Shown here: positions 12,193 through 29,173 of the stretch, piece after piece
Layout: each line of letters opens with the position of its first letter
Numbering within the stretch: the first letter of the stretch is position 1
NCBI GenBank assembly: GCA_022562175.1
Contig: JADFPU010000007.1
Coordinates: forward strand, 1-35,220
Reading direction: 5' to 3'
Origin: Pseudomonadota bacterium
GTDB lineage: Bacteria; Pseudomonadota; Gammaproteobacteria; Eutrophobiales; Eutrophobiaceae
DNA: 35,220 bases
Made by a program: the position numbers and the translations under genes
The notes under the pieces: generated by a model
Seen by the model: only the letters and a program-made list of their open reading frames with translations
Database searches by the model: none
What the model was told of the DNA's origin: nothing

Positions 12193-12310
12193 GTAGAAGC
12201 TCCTAAATTCACTATCATAAAAAACGCGCGTATTGTACCCATGCCACTGCATACGAACAAGACATAAAATCAATGAATCGGTAATTTATTGACACTTTAA
12301 CTGCAAGCCA

Positions 12311-12471
12311 GGAGCCTATCCGAGAATAGAAGCCGTAGCGAGGGAAAGCTGTTTTGAGTCAGATTTTTTCATAATGTGAGACGAATAGCACCGCTATTTA
12401 ACGAATATTATGGAAAAATATGGCCAACATCAGCTGTTCCGCAGGTGGCTTTCTATTCTCGGACAGGCTCC
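12311..12471. mobile_element. MITE-like inverted-repeat element (family 2), about 161 bp, between truB and rpsO
   Basis: GGAGCCTATCCGAGAATAGAAGCC versus GGCTTTCTATTCTCGGACAGGCTCC at the ends; inner near-palindrome ATTTTTTCATAAT...AATAGC-ACC-GCTATT...ATTATGGAAAAAT. Confidence 0.75.
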
Positions 12472-12496
12472 TAGTACTCCGTTAAGGTTGTACTAG
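12471..12496. mobile_element. Solo arm / remnant of the family-1 CTAG element: CTAG-TACTCCGTTAAGGTTGTA-CTAG
   Basis: Matches the left arm of the elements at 23269 and 27974 (one substitution), CTAG on both sides; its right CTAG contains the truB stop. Confidence 0.7.
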
Positions 12497-13410
12497 GACC
12501 GCAGCAGCCGTCTTGGCGCCACGCGGCCATCATCCAGGATTTCTGCCACGCCGAGAAAATCATCCTGTTCATTATAAACCCTTAACATGCCACTGGTGGG
12601 TGCATGGGGCACGATAACGGCCTGCCCGTCATATAAGTAATCAGCGACATCCTGGTTCAGTTCAACATGGGGCAAATGCCTTAAGGCAGTGTCAATGCTG
12701 AGCAGCTTTTCATCTAAAGCAGCAAGCCCCTGTTTTGCAAGCTCTTCGATCTCCGTCATGCTGATCATTTCGTCCTGCACGTAGGGACCGGCGCCGACAC
12801 GTCGCAAAGCGATCACATGCGCACCACAACCGAGTTGTTTACCAATATCTTCAGCCAGAGTACGGATATATGTACCCTTGCTGCAACGTACATCGATTTC
12901 AAACGTCTGCCCATCAAATTTAATCAGCTGCAGTTGATGTATTGTTAGCGGGCGAGCCTGCCGCTCTACCTCTATGCCCTGGTAAGCCAGCTTATACAAT
13001 CGCTGGCCTTTATGTTTCAGTGCTGAGAACATAGGCGGTATCTGTTCAATGTTGCCGCGAAATTTTTTTAATACATTCTCTAACTGTTGCCTGCTGAAGT
13101 CCGGCACCGGTTTTTCACTGATAATATCACCCAGCGCATCACCAGTCGTCGTTTCAACGCCCAGCTTACAAGTTGCCAGGTAATGTTTGTCCGCATTCAG
13201 CAGATAACCGGAAAATTTCGTTGCCTCGCCAAAACACAGCGGCAGAAGCCCTGTTGCCATTTTGTCAAGACTACCGGTATGTCCTGCCTTGCGTGCCTTA
13301 AAAAGGCTCTTTACCCTTTGCAATGCTTCATTGGAGGTAATGCCCATGGGCTTATCCAGTAATAAAATACCCTGGATATTTCTGCCCTTGCTGCGTTGTC
13401 GCCCTCTCAT
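12493..13410 (-). CDS. truB: tRNA pseudouridine(55) synthase TruB
   Basis: GILLLDKPMGITSNEALQRVK, GHTGSLDKMATGLLPLCFGEATKF (catalytic Asp), YEVDVRCSKGTYIRTLAEDIG-like motif. Start trimmed to MRGRQRSKG. Confidence 0.96.
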   Translation of the reverse strand: MRGRQRSKGRNIQGILLLDKPMGITSNEALQRVKSLFKARKAGHTGSLDKMATGLLPLCFGEATKFSGYLLNADKHYLATCKLGVETTTGDALGDIISEKPVPDFSRQQLENVLKKFRGNIEQIPPMFSALKHKGQRLYKLAYQGIEVERQARPLTIHQLQLIKFDGQTFEIDVRCSKGTYIRTLAEDIGKQLGCGAHVIALRRVGAGPYVQDEMISMTEIEELAKQGLAALDEKLLSIDTALRHLPHVELNQDVADYLYDGQAVIVPHAPTSGMLRVYNEQDDFLGVAEILDDGRVAPRRLLRS

Positions 13411-13472
13411 AAAATTAGTATACAAATCAATAATTAAAAATAAATATTCAGCGTCATCAGGCAATATCTTGC

Positions 13473-21731: not shown

Positions 21732-22994
21732 ATGCAAGTGAACTCGTTCAACCTGATTACAACGCTCCTGTCTGTTGATTCAAAGCCATCTTTCATGGCT
21801 TTCCAAATCGGTCAGGTATTAAACGCACTAGTGCTTGGCCGTAATGAGCAGGGCTTTCTGGAACTTAAAATCGGTGCACAGAAAATAACAGCAAATGCAC
21901 CACAGCCCTTGCAGGCGGGGCAATCGCTAAAATTGCTTGTTATTGAGAATAATGAGAATCTTGTCCTGCAGGTTCTCGGCAAAAATAACCAGCAAGCTAC
22001 CAAACAGCTGTTACAACAGTTGCTGCGCCATTCGCTACCACAACATAGCCCACCTACAACGCTGTTTGAAAAACTGAATGCTGTGCAATTACAGAAAAAT
22101 GCAACCACATTAAATTTACCAAAGGCTGTTGTCAGGCAGATCATAGAAACAATGGCAAACATTCCCTCCAAGCAATCCGTATCAACCAGCCAGGGATTAA
22201 AACAGGCATTGCAGGATTCGGGGTTGTTTCTTGAGGCTCGCCTTGGAAAATTATTACACAGCAAGCAACCTGTAGCTGAAGCAACGCAGAAAATTTTAAA
22301 ACAAGACTTTAAAGCCGGACTATTAAGCATAAAATATATCCTGGAGAAAAGTATCGCCGTCAAGCAACAAGTTGCTGTCAGCCTGGTTCCCCGTCAAGCT
22401 GTGGCAGACAAAACCGTCAGTAAAGAATTCTCCCAAACAGTCGATCTGTCCCAAGCAAAAGATAAGACAGTGAAAACCGGAAAAGCCGAGTTAGATATGT
22501 TGAATATTTCCAGAAAGGAAACAACGGAATTGATAGAGCTGAAACGTGTGGTTGATTCAGCGATAGCCCGCATACAAGTCAATCAATCAAGTGCAATCAC
22601 CACCGAACAATCCCAACCTCCAGTATGGCTGATCGATATACCCATTAAAGACAAACAGGAAATATCGTTAGCACAAATGCGGATCTCTTATGATCAACAT
22701 GCAGCAAAAGATGAGGCCGCTGAGCGAAGATGGAGTGCATCGTTAACGATAGAACTTGAGACGCTGGGTAAAATTCACGTCCGTGTCGTCCTCTCGGGCG
22801 ATGAAATATCCTCGTCTATATGGGCCGAAGACAATGCCACCTATCGCCTGATTGAACAACATATGCAACAGCTCACCGATAATCTGCATAGAGCTGGGCT
22901 GAACATCGACTGCGTGAATTGTTATCCCGGTAACGCCCGGCAAGCTTCACATGTTGATCACGCTTCACAAACATTAGTGAGCATCAGAATATGA
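21732..22994 (+). CDS. FliK-like flagellar hook-length control C-terminal (Flg_hook-like) protein
   Basis: C-terminal WSASLTIELETLGKIHVRVVLSGDEISSSIWAEDNATYRLIEQHMQQLTDNLHRAGLNIDCVNC resembles Flg_hook; ATGA overlap with the FlhB-C-like ORF. Confidence 0.75.
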   Translation: MQVNSFNLITTLLSVDSKPSFMAFQIGQVLNALVLGRNEQGFLELKIGAQKITANAPQPLQAGQSLKLLVIENNENLVLQVLGKNNQQATKQLLQQLLRHSLPQHSPPTTLFEKLNAVQLQKNATTLNLPKAVVRQIIETMANIPSKQSVSTSQGLKQALQDSGLFLEARLGKLLHSKQPVAEATQKILKQDFKAGLLSIKYILEKSIAVKQQVAVSLVPRQAVADKTVSKEFSQTVDLSQAKDKTVKTGKAELDMLNISRKETTELIELKRVVDSAIARIQVNQSSAITTEQSQPPVWLIDIPIKDKQEISLAQMRISYDQHAAKDEAAERRWSASLTIELETLGKIHVRVVLSGDEISSSIWAEDNATYRLIEQHMQQLTDNLHRAGLNIDCVNCYPGNARQASHVDHASQTLVSIRI

Positions 22995-23272
22995 CTGATC
23001 AGGAACAGAAACCCGACAAACAAGCCGTTGCCTTGTATTATGACCAGCTCACTGCTCCCAAGGTTACAGCAAAGGGAGCGGGGGATCTGGCAGACAAGAT
23101 TATTGCACTTGCACTGGAAAATGATGTGCCGATACGGGAAGAGCCTGAGCTGGTGCAACTCCTGGCGAAAGTTGAATTAGGTGATGAAATACCTGAGCTA
23201 TTATATGTTGCTGTTGCAGAGATCATCGCTTTTGTCTACATGCTGAAGGGCAAGGTCCATGAGCAATCCTAG
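22991..23272 (+). CDS. FlhB C-terminal-domain-like protein (stand-alone FlhB-CC / FlhX type)
   Basis: AVALYYDQLTAPKVTAKGAGDLADKIIALALENDVPIREEPELVQLLAKVELGDEIPELLYVAVAEIIAFVYML, colinear with FlhB/YscU after the NPTH cleavage site. Confidence 0.88.
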   Translation: MTDQEQKPDKQAVALYYDQLTAPKVTAKGAGDLADKIIALALENDVPIREEPELVQLLAKVELGDEIPELLYVAVAEIIAFVYMLKGKVHEQS

Positions 23273-23331
23273 TACTCCGTCAAGGTTGTATTGATGGGTT
23301 CAGCATCAATACAACCTTGACGGAGTACTAG
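23269..23331. mobile_element. Minimal 63-bp CTAG element (family 1): perfect 28-bp arms, 7-nt loop
   Basis: CTAGTACTCCGTCAAGGTTGTATTGATG-GGTTCAG-CATCAATACAACCTTGACGGAGTACTAG. Confidence 0.9.
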
Positions 23332-23355
23332 CAACAGACTTTCAAACGAAACGGG

Positions 23356-23892
23356 CTACTGTTTTTTTAGTTGTGCAGCGTTTTTCCTGGCCTTTTTTGC
23401 CCCTTCATCATCACCAACAAGCTGGCGGGCTTGAGCAATTATCTGCCAGTTAGCGGCTTGTAAAGAATAATTTCCGGCAGCGAGAGAATTGGATTTACTG
23501 GCAAGATTAATAGCCTGCGGCCAGTTACGTTGCTGTAAACGCAGCGCACCCAGACGATGCCACAGTAACGCATTCTTTGGTTGCAGGCGCAGAGCACGTT
23601 CCAATGTCGCGGCAGCGGATTCCCACTTACCCACATTCACCTCATGTCGGGCATTTTCCATCAAGGCAACGACCACCGTAGATATCTGCTGATGTTCCTG
23701 CGGTTGTATGATATCTGGACCGGACATCTCATCCAGCCTGGCGTCATCAAGCATGACTGCTGCCTCATCACCCCTTGCCGATGTGCTACGATCCACTACC
23801 GGGGCAGGGTCATCTTGTTTTGGTGTTGTTGTACAGGCTTGCGTAATTAACAGCATAGTCAGGAGCCAAAGATATTTTAGCGCTTTTTTCAT
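23356..23892 (-). CDS. TPR-repeat lipoprotein of unknown function
   Basis: Lipobox LLITQAC; TPR-like ATLERALRLQPKNALLWHRLGALRLQQRNWPQAINLASKSNSLA. Confidence 0.8.
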   Translation of the reverse strand: MKKALKYLWLLTMLLITQACTTTPKQDDPAPVVDRSTSARGDEAAVMLDDARLDEMSGPDIIQPQEHQQISTVVVALMENARHEVNVGKWESAAATLERALRLQPKNALLWHRLGALRLQQRNWPQAINLASKSNSLAAGNYSLQAANWQIIAQARQLVGDDEGAKKARKNAAQLKKQ

Positions 23893-23901
23893 GGACTGAA
23901 T

Positions 23902-26211
23902 CTAATGCAAGAGGCTGGTTTGATGATTAACACTGTTGTCATGGCAACCTTTCAACGGTATGGCGTTCGCTGTTTTGATATATGGCAGCCTGGCCAAATC
24001 AGTACAATACTTGCTTTGCTTTTTAGTAGCCACTTTTAGCCAGCTTATCGATTCAGGGGCTATCTGAGTTAGTGCTTGTACCTTTACCACCTTCATCATC
24101 TCTGCCCATAATTGCATCGCTCCCCCTGCTCCAGTGTATTTTGCCGGCTGATTATCATCACGTCCCAACCAGATCACAGCCAAAAGATCATCGCCAAAAC
24201 CAACAAACCAGCTATCTCGCAGATCATTCGTTGTTCCGGTCTTGCCGGCCAATGACTTGTCCTCGCCCATTGCCTTATGCAAGGATTTGCCCGTACCACT
24301 CCTGACAACCTCTGATAACAGGAAATTTGTCAAAAACACGGGTGCTGGATCCAGTGTCTGCCTGATTTGCAGAGCATACCGTTGCAGTGGCCGCGCCTGG
24401 CTATCCAGCACTGCTCTAATGCTGTTGAGTGGCACCTGGAAGCCACCATTCGCAATTGTTTGATACATTTGTGACACCTCAACCGGACTAAGTTCCAAGG
24501 CACCAAGTAACAAGGAAGGATAGGCTTTTATACTGGACTGTATACCTGTGTCTCGTAGCGTCTTGATCACATTAGCCAGGCCCACACTCATTCCTAAACG
24601 GACTGCTGCAAGATTATACGAGTTTTTCAGAGCATCAATGAGTGACACCTGTCCATGACTTTTGCGATCATAGTTTCTGGGCTTCCACACTCTGCCATCA
24701 GACTGTTTGATTTCAATGGGCACATCATCAATCAATGTCAGTATGTTATATTTTTCAGGCTTTGATAATGCAGCAAGGTATATAGCAGGCTTTATCAAGG
24801 ATCCGATTGGTCGCTTCGCATCCAGCGCCCGATTAAATCCGTTAACATGCTTATCTCGACCGCCTATAAGCGCGATAATTTCACCCGTGCCAATACGTAA
24901 GATAACAGCGGCCATTTGCAGGCTGGCTGTTTTCAGGTGTTTGCGCTTTTCAAGGACAGCAAGTTTTTTACTGGCAGCAGCCTCTGCTGCCTCTTGTATG
25001 TGTGGCACCAGGGTTGTAAATATACGTAGTCCCTCATTTTGCAGATCCTGTATTTTATAATCACGCAATAACTGCCGCCTGACAAGCTCAAGAAAAGCAG
25101 GATATTTAGACTGCCCCCAGGCTGGTTTTGCAGCAAGATCGAGTGCTTTAGATTGTGCAAGACCTGCTTTCTCTGCAGTGAGCAGCCCCTGCTCCTGCAT
25201 TAAACGCAAGACCAGATTTCTTCTCTGCAGTGCTCGCTGTGGATGTCGGCGAGGGTTATAATAAGAAGCGCCGCGAACAAGTCCCGCCAGTAAAGCCATC
25301 TGGTCAACACGTAATTCTTTTAAAGGCCTGGCAAAATAAAACTCTGCTGCCGTGCCAAAGCCGTGTATACCCCGGGCACCGTGCTGACCCAGGTAAATCT
25401 CATTGATATAGGCTGTCAGGATCTCTTGTTTCGAATAGCGCCTCTCCAGTAACAGCGCCATAATGACCTCGTTGATCTTACGCCAATATGACCTTTGCGA
25501 AGACAGGAAGAAATTTTTTACTAACTGCTGGGTTAAGGTACTGCCGCCCTGCGCGATTTCGCCCTTACGGATATTCGTAAACGCTGCTCTTAAAATGCCG
25601 CGAAAATCCAGCCCAAAATGACTGAAAAAATGCCTGTCTTCAACAGCAACAAGCGCTGCAATCAAAAATTGAGGCACCTCATGATAGCCAATCACCACCC
25701 TGTCTTCATTATGTTCAGGATATATCTTACCGATCAGTTGGGGTTCTAATCTGACAAGACTCAATGATGCACCTGAGTTTACATCACTCAACCTGGCGAT
25801 GTGATCACGCCTGAATACTACGTTAACTGCTTGCTGCATCTCTCGCTCATTCCAAAAACTGAATGATCGTTTAAGAAATTCCCGGGAATCGTGGGTTTTA
25901 CTGTACTGGCCGGGTTTCACCAGCAGATCTGATTGGTTAAAGCCGATGGATAGTAATTCGCCCTCCAGGGTTGTTAAGGACAGCTCCTGACCTGGATAGA
26001 TTTCCATTGGACTAGCATACACACGAGCCGGCAAAGACCATTTTTTGCCTTCAAATTCATGTTGAATGCGGTAATCCAGCCATAAAATACAGGCCGTGCC
26101 GACGCACGCAAGAATCACAAGCAACTGGAATTGCCACAGATTGCGAGTCTTTTTTTTTCTTGTACGGTTCCGTTTGCGTTGTCGCCTGCTTGTTGAAGAT
26201 CTTGATGCCAT
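23902..26211 (-). CDS. mrcB: Bifunctional penicillin-binding protein 1B
   Basis: N-terminal cytoplasmic basic tail + TM; GT51 motifs VEDRHFFSHFGLDFRGILRA, QGGSTLTQQLVKN; transpeptidase RPIGSLIKP, KTGTTNDLRDSWFVGF. Confidence 0.95.
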   Translation of the reverse strand: MASRSSTSRRQRKRNRTRKKKTRNLWQFQLLVILACVGTACILWLDYRIQHEFEGKKWSLPARVYASPMEIYPGQELSLTTLEGELLSIGFNQSDLLVKPGQYSKTHDSREFLKRSFSFWNEREMQQAVNVVFRRDHIARLSDVNSGASLSLVRLEPQLIGKIYPEHNEDRVVIGYHEVPQFLIAALVAVEDRHFFSHFGLDFRGILRAAFTNIRKGEIAQGGSTLTQQLVKNFFLSSQRSYWRKINEVIMALLLERRYSKQEILTAYINEIYLGQHGARGIHGFGTAAEFYFARPLKELRVDQMALLAGLVRGASYYNPRRHPQRALQRRNLVLRLMQEQGLLTAEKAGLAQSKALDLAAKPAWGQSKYPAFLELVRRQLLRDYKIQDLQNEGLRIFTTLVPHIQEAAEAAASKKLAVLEKRKHLKTASLQMAAVILRIGTGEIIALIGGRDKHVNGFNRALDAKRPIGSLIKPAIYLAALSKPEKYNILTLIDDVPIEIKQSDGRVWKPRNYDRKSHGQVSLIDALKNSYNLAAVRLGMSVGLANVIKTLRDTGIQSSIKAYPSLLLGALELSPVEVSQMYQTIANGGFQVPLNSIRAVLDSQARPLQRYALQIRQTLDPAPVFLTNFLLSEVVRSGTGKSLHKAMGEDKSLAGKTGTTNDLRDSWFVGFGDDLLAVIWLGRDDNQPAKYTGAGGAMQLWAEMMKVVKVQALTQIAPESISWLKVATKKQSKYCTDLARLPYIKTANAIPLKGCHDNSVNHQTSLLH

Positions 26212-26261
26212 TGAGATAATTCAGGCTTGTTTGAAAGAAATCATAGAATCATAGTAAACCT

Positions 26262-26286
26262 AAAAAAAAACCCCGCAATTGCGGGG
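26262..26286 (-). terminator. Intrinsic terminator downstream of the histone-like gene region
   Basis: Minus strand CCCCGCAATTGCGGGG followed by TTTTTTTTT (plus-strand A9 at 26262-26270). Confidence 0.9.
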
Positions 26287-26441
26287 CTTAATTTTCCTCT
26301 ATCAGCGTCTTCTCCCGACACAGCTTTCAAACTTCTGACTGCTCTGCCAGCTTCCTGGCTAATGCCTGACGCTTCTGCCTCCTGAGCTTTATCTCCGCCC
26401 TTACTTTTTGCTTACGCTGGACGGCAGACAAGATCAGCGAG

Positions 26442-26618
26442 CTATTTTTTTTTAGCCTTTTTCTTGGTAGCTTTCTTCTTTGCTACCTTCTTCTTTGCTA
26501 CCTTCTTCTTTACTACAGTCTTCTTTACTACAGTCTTCTTTACTACAGTCTTCTTCACTACAGTCTTCTTTACTACAGTCTTCTTTGCTGTCTTCTTCTT
26601 TCCAGTCTTCTTAGCCAT
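26442..26618 (-). CDS. Histone H1-like lysine-rich DNA-binding protein with KKTVV / KKVAK pentapeptide repeats
   Basis: MAKKTGKKKTAKKTVVKKTVVKKTVVKKTVVKKTVVKKKVAKKKVAKKKATKKKAKKK; start trimmed to MAKKTG; 15-bp DNA repeats TTCTTTACTACAGTC on the plus strand. Confidence 0.85.
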   Translation of the reverse strand: MAKKTGKKKTAKKTVVKKTVVKKTVVKKTVVKKTVVKKKVAKKKVAKKKATKKKAKKK

Positions 26619-26873
26619 AATTTTAGACTCCCCTAGAACTCGATTGGATGAAACAACATAAAGTACATTAAACACAACAATACAACTAGCTGTCCATTAT
26701 AGTAAGGTTTTCAATTTTTTAAAATATTTTTTTACTTAAATTTAAAAACCCTCATAAATAAAAAATAAACTGGTTTAGAACATTATCATTAGTAAAATAT
26801 TTTGTTGCAACATTTCAACAAGCATTAATAGTTTTACAGATCCCGACAAATCAACGTGTCATAGCAAAACTAT

Positions 26874-27527
26874 TTATTTCAAACCTGAACTAATGTCTTT
26901 CTGTATTTTATTAATGTCGCCCATGCCATTGATTCTAAGGTATTTAGGCGAATTTTCACTGTTCTGTTCATAGAGATCCGAATAATAATCGATTAATGGA
27001 ACTGTTTGCTCATAATAGACTTGCAGTCGTTTTTTTACTGTCTGTTCCTTGTCATCATCGCGTTGAATCAGCGCTTCTCCCGTCACATCATCTTTGCCAA
27101 ACTCTTTTGGTGGATTAAATTCAATATGATAGGTCCTGCTGGAAGACAGGTGCACACGGCGTCCACTTATTCTTTTAACTATCTCTTTATCATCCACCTG
27201 TAGTTCAACAACATAATCAACTCTGATATCAGTAAGTCTCATACCTTCTGCTTGAGCAATGGTCCTGGGAAAACCATCGAACAGGTAACCTCGCTGACAA
27301 TCACTTTGATTTATCCGTTCGTTGACTAACTTAAGAATTAAATCATCAGAGACCAGTTCGCCTGCATCCATGATCTTTTTTGCTACCTTGCCCAGACGTG
27401 TGCCGGCCTTTACCGCTGCTCTTAGCATATCCCCGGTTGATATTTGCGGGATATTGAATTTGTTTTTGATAAAGTCTGCCTGAGTACCCTTGCCCGCACC
27501 AGGCGGTCCTAACAATATGATTTTCAT
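26874..27527 (-). CDS. adk: Adenylate kinase
   Basis: [91 protein letters not shown]. Confidence 0.97.
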
Positions 27528-27593
27528 GGATATATAACTCCAGAAATATTACTATGTCAGCCTATAATATCAGCTTACTGTAGATTATTTAGT

Positions 27594-27977
27594 ATGAAAA
27601 TAGAACTCGATATAAATTTAGCCGGAAAAAACAGGATCGATGCATACACAAATGAGTTTATCAGCATTGCCAATATAAAATACCGAAGTAATTTAATCGT
27701 ATCTGCCGATGCAATCATTGAAAACTGGATTACACATGATTCCTCCTGCTTGACTAAACAGGATCTGGATCCGGTTATTTCTCTTTGCCCGGAAATTGTA
27801 CTGCTTGGAACTGGTTCACATTTACACTTTCCACCTGATGAAGTGATGGCAGACTTTAATCTCAGGCAGATAGGCTTTGAGGTGATGGATACCGGTGCTG
27901 CATGCCGCTCATATAATTTTCTGTTAGGAGAAGGCCGGCAGGTAGTCGCTGCATTGTTAATGTTCGAAGCATGCTAG
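27594..27977 (+). CDS. Mth938/NDUFAF3-like (DUF498) protein
   Basis: IVLLGTGSHLHFPPDEV...GFEVMDTGAACRSYNFLLGEGRQVVAALLM. Confidence 0.88.
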   Translation: MKIELDINLAGKNRIDAYTNEFISIANIKYRSNLIVSADAIIENWITHDSSCLTKQDLDPVISLCPEIVLLGTGSHLHFPPDEVMADFNLRQIGFEVMDTGAACRSYNFLLGEGRQVVAALLMFEAC

Positions 27978-28160
27978 TACTCCGTCAAGGTTGTATTGGT
28001 GGATTCAGTTGACCTGTCAGCGTTCATGGCAAGGCACGTCTCGCAGGCAATGGCACCGTCCTTCGCAAGAGAGGTAACGCCGCCATGGATGCTGACAGGT
28101 CAACCCTGCGGGCACCACTGTGATGCTGAAACCATCAATACAACCTTGACGGAGTACTAG
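27974..28160. mobile_element. 187-bp CTAG element (family 1) filling the convergent intergenic space
   Basis: Ends CTAGTACTCCGTCAAGGTTGTATTG / CAATACAACCTTGACGGAGTACTAG; inner nested inverted repeat TTGACCTGTCAGCGTTCATGG (28009-28029) versus CCATGGATGCTGACAGGTCAA (28083-28103). Confidence 0.9.
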
Positions 28161-29173
28161 TTTTCATTGAACAGTGCATCGACAGAAAAGCCTTCTCGTT
28201 CCAGTATCTGCCGCAAGCGTTTTATTGCTTCAATCTGGATTTGTCTGACACGTTCACGGGTCACGCCGAGTTCATTACCAATTTCTTCCAGGGTCGCTAC
28301 TTCTCTCCCATGCAATCCAAATCTACGCTCTACAACAGCACATTGCTTCTCACTAAGCTGATTTAGCCAAATATCGATATGTTTTTGTACGTCACTGTTT
28401 TGTAACAACAGGGACGGATCTATATTTTGCTCGTCGGGGATCGTATCCAGTAAGGATTTATCTGAATCACGACTCGTTGGCATATCAACGGATGCTACAC
28501 GTTCGTTCAAACCAAGCATGCGTTTAACCTCACCTATGGGTCGATCCAGCATCTCGGCTACATCTTCAGGACTCGGTTCCCGATCCAGAGTCTGTGCCAG
28601 CTTTCTGGCAGCACGAAGATAGATATTGATCTCTTTTACCACATGAATAGGCAGCCGCACAGTTCGAGTTTGATTCATCAATGCGCGTTCGATAGTTTGT
28701 CTGATCCACCAGGTTGCATAGGTGGAAAAACGAAAACCTCTCTCCGGATCAAATTTCTCCACAGCACGGATCAGTCCCAGATTGCCCTCTTCAATCAAAT
28801 CCAACAAGGCCAGGCCACGTTTCATGTAGCGCCTTGCAATTTTGACCACTAAGCGGAGGTTGCTCTCAATCATGCGTTTACGGGAACTCTCGTCCCCCTG
28901 TATGGACTTACGCGCATAAAAAACTTCTTCTTCTGCAGTCAGTAATGGAGAAAAACCGATTTCACTCAGATAGAGTCTGGTTGCGTCCAAATCGCCTTCG
29001 GTAACTGATACTGAGGTTGGCGATATACCGTCAGCCTTTTGCCGTTTTGAATCTGCATTCACAGCCAAATCAGAAACATCTTCTTCTTCCGGCTGTTCCT
29101 CCAGATGTAATTCTTCTGCGTCCAACTCGTCCATATCATCAATCTCGTCTTGTGGCGTCCGTTGATTTGTCAT
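28157..29173 (-). CDS. rpoS: RNA polymerase sigma factor RpoS
   Basis: [69 protein letters not shown]; synteny with nlpD-pcm-surE. Confidence 0.96.

Follow-up and report, generated by a model that had tools for sequence, protein, structure and literature searches.

The window analysed here, the whole stretch of 35,220 nucleotides (contig C242 of an incomplete 2.75-Mb genome), carries three copies of a short palindromic element whose CTAG edges contain the stop codons of adjoining genes. This raises the question of how an element and a stop codon come to coincide so exactly, and whether, as a sequence-only reading of this DNA had proposed, such elements target pre-existing CTAG tetranucleotides and duplicate them. 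The copies and the stops concerned are:

12471..12496, no strand: the shortest copy, CTAG + TACTCCGTTAAGGTTGTA + CTAG, with one arm; both CTAG edges are kept despite an internal deletion
12493..12495, minus strand: TAG stop of truB (ORF 12493-13464, minus strand, NCBIfam), inside the right CTAG edge
23269..23331, no strand: 63-bp copy, two outer arms that form a perfect hairpin, with CTAG at both edges
23270..23272, plus strand: TAG stop of an flhB-like gene (ORF 22991-23272, plus strand, NCBIfam), inside the left CTAG edge
27974..28160, no strand: 187-bp copy, outer arms around a long hairpin and a second, truncated hairpin, with CTAG at both edges
27975..27977, plus strand: TAG stop of a Mth938-like gene (ORF 27594-27977, plus strand), inside the left CTAG edge
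28157..28159, minus strand: TAG stop of rpoS (ORF 28157-29173, minus strand, NCBIfam), inside the right CTAG edge

The existence of three family-1 copies with a common arm was confirmed: the arm TACTCCGTYAAGGTTGTA has five exact matches in the window (at 12475, 23273 and 27978 and, on the minus strand, at 23310 and 28139; chance expectation 0.01 with up to 3 mismatches allowed), and CTAG is present at 6/6 edges. The in-frame stop provided by the edge TAG was likewise found at all four gene contacts (truB, flhB-like, Mth938-like and rpoS). Because the gene opposite the edge at 23328-23331 (23356-23892, minus strand) has its own stop, 25 bp away, and the edge at 12471 adjoins another repeat, 4/4 refers to direct gene contacts, and is not to be read as 4/6 edges. 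The presumed depletion of CTAG holds in the window as well (26 occurrences versus 82 in shuffled sequences). The 187-bp copy (27974..28160) has a fold z-score of -13.8.

The window copies are shortened forms of a full-length element of about 261 bp, which was recovered from relatives and is a T-shaped palindrome composed of outer inverted arms of about 31 bp, a hairpin H1, a CCC..GGG mini-stem and a hairpin H2. The 26-bp copy at 12471 and a CTAG-arm-CAGTACTAG form (L002) look like internal deletions of this palindrome. Nineteen full-length copies from genus g15 were aligned without gaps (269 columns, including 4 edge bases per side; outer stem formed by columns 5-35 paired with 235-265), and strong covariation was found: 97% of pair cells are paired and two-sided changes occur in 25/74 pairs, values reached in 0/500 shuffles. 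Pairing amounts to 99.3% in the arms and 78.9% in the four edge columns, with the innermost edge pair complementary in 19/19 copies. Since the arm sequence varies among copies (e.g. CAACCTGATATTG, CCAGGTGATATTG, CCAGTTAATATTG), the arms form a near-exact palindrome within each copy yet differ from one copy to another. The few arm mismatches are G.T (9) and A.C (8), with no strand preference, and their near-equal numbers point to a DNA-level process and against selection on RNA. Template switching between inverted repeats homogenises arms and inverts spacers (PMC8604942). One full-length copy (L156:999-1267) has its H1 loop in the opposite orientation to that of every other copy, on an intact stem, and in a further copy (L146:1000-1268) the arms mismatch in part (TACCC..CCAGTTAA on one side, the CAACTTAA type on the other), as if two copies had recombined.

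When searched as a CTAG-free pattern, the arm identifies about 11 loci across the genome of the window (genome-wide counts rest on 344 kb, copy-bearing contigs included), and nearly all edges are CTAG; one locus has TTAG and one right end CCAG. Within the same family, genera g8 and g10 also carry the element, and it is abundant in g15, whose genomes carry tens of copies, many of them 85-100% identical. No gene was present inside any copy seen, and among 42 copies with two ends, 15 carry CTAG on both sides. A distant match pointed to relatives in Halomonas sp. PA16-9, Azotobacter chroococcum and a Pseudomonas aeruginosa plasmid, where the T-shape is the same, the length nearly equal and the arms different (GGYCTGTTGACG); the edges are TTAG/CTAG, CTAG/CTAG and CTAG/CTAA. 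Used as a pattern, the GGYCTGTTGACG arm has matches in 10/273 genera of the class, with YTAG at 16/30 edges. Given these YTAG/CTAG edges in other genera, the CTAG edge is a trait of a wider group and not of the window's own genome alone. Three element-carrying g15 genomes sampled contain 59 CTAGs in 320 kb (about 178 expected). CTAG is depleted about threefold in the other sampled g15 genomes, and in the sole g15 genome without a match (G014, L340-L343) it is extremely rare, with 5 occurrences in 80 kb versus 46 expected.

Further repeats were observed in the window and in related genomes. A second palindromic element (12308-12474, GAGCCTATCCGAGAATAG ... CTATTCTCGGACAGGCTC) has the edges CCAG and CTAG, the latter being shared with the 26-bp family-1 copy, whose left edge it forms; a further end of this second element occurs at G000 C73 (L350:20). 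A third element (2117-2353, CCTAGAATCCGCAGTT ... AACTGCGGAATCTAGG), with at least 5 repeats in the genome sample, has CTAG seemingly inside its terminal repeat, and its ends presumably recall IS1380-family termini. Yet another element, with TATACCCAAACTACTTGG ends (L072, L058, L066, L071 and L083, in g10 and others), shares with the T-shaped element an inner hairpin loop motif and the CCCTGYGGG stem; elements with different termini thus have inner parts in common. At L016:697-860 a family-1 arm is continued, beyond CTAGTACTCCGTCAAGG, by another palindrome (TCTCGCTAAGGCGCAAAG), at an ORF stop. The window also contains a low-complexity run (26420-26620), the minus strand of which codes for histone H1-like Lys/Ala/Thr/Val repeats.

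The origin of the edges was approached through empty sites, for which the joined flanks of filled sites were searched in related genomes. Twelve sites were resolved:

L153: empty site CTTG; edges CTAG/CTAG
L165: empty site CTCG; edges CTGG/CTGG
L161: empty site CTTG; edges CTGG/CTGG
L176: empty site CTCG or CTTG; edges CTAG/CTAG
L145: empty site CTAT; edges CTAG/CCAG
L174: empty site CGGA; edges CAGG/CGAG
L171: empty site ATAT; edges AGAT/ACAT
L159: empty site CCTG; edges TTAG/CTAG
L158: empty site TTAG; edges TTAG/CTGA
L081: empty site CTGG; edges CGTG/CTAG
L164: empty site CTCG; edges TTAG/CCAG, one base lost
L168: resolved site with a different length

The net gain beyond the element core is exactly 4 bp at 10/12 sites, and the two edges of a copy are more alike as direct repeats than expected by chance (129 matches versus 116.5 in permutations, p<1e-4) and, more weakly, as inverted repeats (p=0.01). 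From the exact 4-bp gain and the direct-repeat similarity, a 4-bp target duplication is likely. However, CTAG is present at none of the 10 alignable empty sites. At six of these the flanking identity is 93% or higher, and ordinary divergence would make all six differ with a probability of about 1e-5 (product of per-site values); the edges are 65% identical to the empty 4-mer, and the surroundings mostly 82-98%. The proposal that CTAG is targeted and duplicated is therefore upheld as regards a mobile palindrome, direct-repeat edges and filled sites longer by the element plus 4 bp, but not as regards CTAG being there beforehand. Relative to the empty sites the edges were altered, mostly towards CTAG, which seems to be a product of the insertion or to have arrived with it, rather than an earlier target that was simply duplicated. 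The empty sites belong to genera of the family other than the window's own (g15 and, in one case, g10), and from them we infer the same for the window.

Two ways of discounting the empty sites were considered. Excision footprints posing as empty sites were rejected because identical letters occur in 3 or 4 relatives and, at L176, because removing the element restores the coding frame. A hypermutable CTAG lost in all relatives is argued against by CTAT, CTCG or ATAT being common to three relatives; the aligned flanks contain only four CTAGs, conserved in 0/4 cases.

Stop codons were then compared between element edges and other CTAGs. In 344 kb of the window's own genome, with gene calls made as simple ORFs, stops occur at 6/16 non-coding element edges and at 16/77 other non-coding CTAGs (p=0.2). 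The enrichment at stops that had been anticipated is thus not significant, and the association is mostly the background of CTAG outside coding sequence. TAG stops as safe landing sites are supported insofar as edge stops are real and tolerated, but the enrichment is weak and copies also occur inside genes: the L176 copy breaks up a dehydrogenase-like gene at its start, and at L030 a long ORF continues into the element. In the window, rpoS ends at the same codon as in relatives lacking the element (TAG in 4/5, TAA in 1/5), and the C-terminal length of TruB equals that of relative G030 (RRLLRS versus RRLLKL). Existing stops were struck in g15 at L158 (TTAG), L162 (ATAG) and L156 (TGA). At L145, in a gene which we take by eye from its sequence to be hydantoinase B-like, the insertion turned GGC TAT into GGC TAG, a new in-frame stop that leaves the gene 9 residues shorter; the position is TAT in 3/3 empty relatives, which read on for nine more residues. 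The edges can therefore make stops as well as use them.

The reading we favour, and hold to be moderately probable, is that of a non-autonomous MITE-like element with a 4-bp duplication at CTNG/YTAG-like sites, followed by palindrome-templated homogenisation of arms and edges. The element would be mobilised by an enzyme that it does not encode, and its insertion leaves the 4-bp footprint, evident from length, at a loosely specified site. Both 4-bp copies would then be altered, most often into sequences able to pair with each other across the element, CTAG being the self-complementary one. The edge changes are seen directly against the empty sites; as their cause we infer, as the likeliest, template switching between the palindrome arms, which would also keep the arms complementary within each copy while they diverge among copies. 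TAG stops reach the edges by two routes, both of them observed, either through an existing YTAG/ATAG stop being kept or through an in-frame insertion near the 3' end that makes a TAG, and the surviving insertions would be those doing little harm. Duplication followed by such alteration is favoured by the direct-repeat similarity of the edges together with the weaker inverted-repeat one, and by changed edge bases formerly unpaired across the element, of which 14/23 are now Watson-Crick paired (1/3 expected; p=0.006, treating as independent linked edge positions that are not fully so); CTAG satisfies both relations. The inverted H1 loop of L156 is of the kind that template switching also produces. 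On the other hand, four edge changes to G opposite T (L161, L165) and the unpaired edge positions retained at L171, L174 and L081 speak against template switching alone.

The main rival follows from four sites (L153, L165, L161 and L176) at which both edges changed identically (CTTG to CTAG/CTAG, CTCG to CTGG/CTGG, CTTG to CTGG/CTGG and CTCG to CTAG/CTAG), for which edges travelling with the element would be the simpler explanation. CTAG (or CTGG, CCAG) would then belong to the mobile unit, or to a circular or single-stranded intermediate, and replace a CTNG-like 4-bp core, by analogy with core exchange by a site-specific recombinase or a single-strand transposase. At these four sites the CT and G of the target match the edges, and the short derivatives L002, L004 and L010 retain both CTAG edges; however, target letters are retained at L171 (ATAT to AGAT/ACAT) and L158 (TTAG to TTAG/CTGA), edge letters do not track the arm subfamily, and edge columns pair far worse than the arms, so that we regard it as rather unlikely. 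Faithful duplication of a pre-existing CTAG in the manner of an IS5-group YTAR element, with TAG stops as safe landing sites, accords with the copies having CTAG at both edges, the direct-repeat similarity and the YTAG edges in other genera (CTAG-free arm pattern), but is contradicted by the empty sites, above all the six best-flanked ones, unless all relatives lost CTAG independently, and CTAG itself is rare in g15; it is improbable. Strong folding (z about -14), copies adjoining the stops of convergent genes and the partial precedent of YPAL in Yersinia (PMC2229807) could suggest that selection retains the element for the structure it adopts in RNA, where it would act at the stop codon as a terminator or stabilise the 3'-UTR. 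This is very unlikely in view of arm mismatches without strand preference, of copies within genes and at gene starts (L176) and of the persistence of shortened single-arm copies. A broader formulation, according to which a widespread gammaproteobacterial T-shaped family has its 4-bp footprint rewritten to CTAG by insertion or by later palindrome-templated copying, and may thereby write an in-frame stop, is put forward tentatively, as possible rather than probable.

Under the favoured reading, a target-site duplication deduced from a filled site can mislead, as a palindromic element may have its edges rewritten once it has inserted. The copies, with arms complementary in each and different among them, preserve, in natural sequences, traces of bacterial palindrome homogenisation, and L145 is a case of an insertion shifting a stop codon. 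Culture experiments on these ideas are possible with the relatives in Halomonas, Azotobacter and Pseudomonas.

Several candidate parents and known systems were compared with the element. Some IS5-group elements duplicate YTAR-type targets; the 4-bp footprint and CTAG/TTAG edges are shared with them, but the empty sites here include CTTG, CTCG, CTAT, CGGA, ATAT and CCTG, only TTAG fits, and duplication of a YTAR target was not found for this element. Bordetella IS481 has a CTAG-like target; its parentage was rejected, as transposase genes exist in the genome and matching arms are absent beside them. No autonomous relative with the same ends was seen in the family genomes searched, and a scan of the genome contigs gave only two element loci. 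A RAYT/REPIN origin was rejected because the copy-carrying genomes G037, G026 and G041 (the first two copy-rich) have no Y1_Tnp match; no family arms lay near RAYT at the loci checked. Rfam gave one sub-threshold chance match only, a phage search nothing, and no earlier description of the arm sequence or of CTAG elements at stops was found in the literature searched.

The element is short, non-coding and multicopy, with arms 99.3% paired and insertion evidenced by 12 empty-relative sites, and with bacterial MITE-like repeats (ERIC/IRU, RUP, Correia/NEMIS) it shares shortness, lack of coding capacity, terminal inverted repeats, multiple and mostly intergenic copies and a target-site footprint; it differs from them in its nested T-palindrome of about 261 bp, in CTAG/YTAG edges instead of TA and in edges unlike the empty sites (PMC2229807). 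YPAL (RU-2) of Yersinia is also palindromic, with known empty and filled sites and targets in or beside dyad symmetry, but its duplications range in length between 3 and 26 bp and it has internal inverted repeats, whereas here the footprint is a near-constant 4 bp and the arms are terminal (PMC2229807). REP/REPIN sequences with RAYT are likewise palindromes scattered through the genome that carry a conserved tetranucleotide at the foot of the stem, but are 20-40 bp long with one-sided GTAG/CGTC tags, in contrast to about 261 bp and symmetric YTAG here (PMC2817692, PMC3733652). In its T-shape, the element is reminiscent of the parvovirus terminal repeat.
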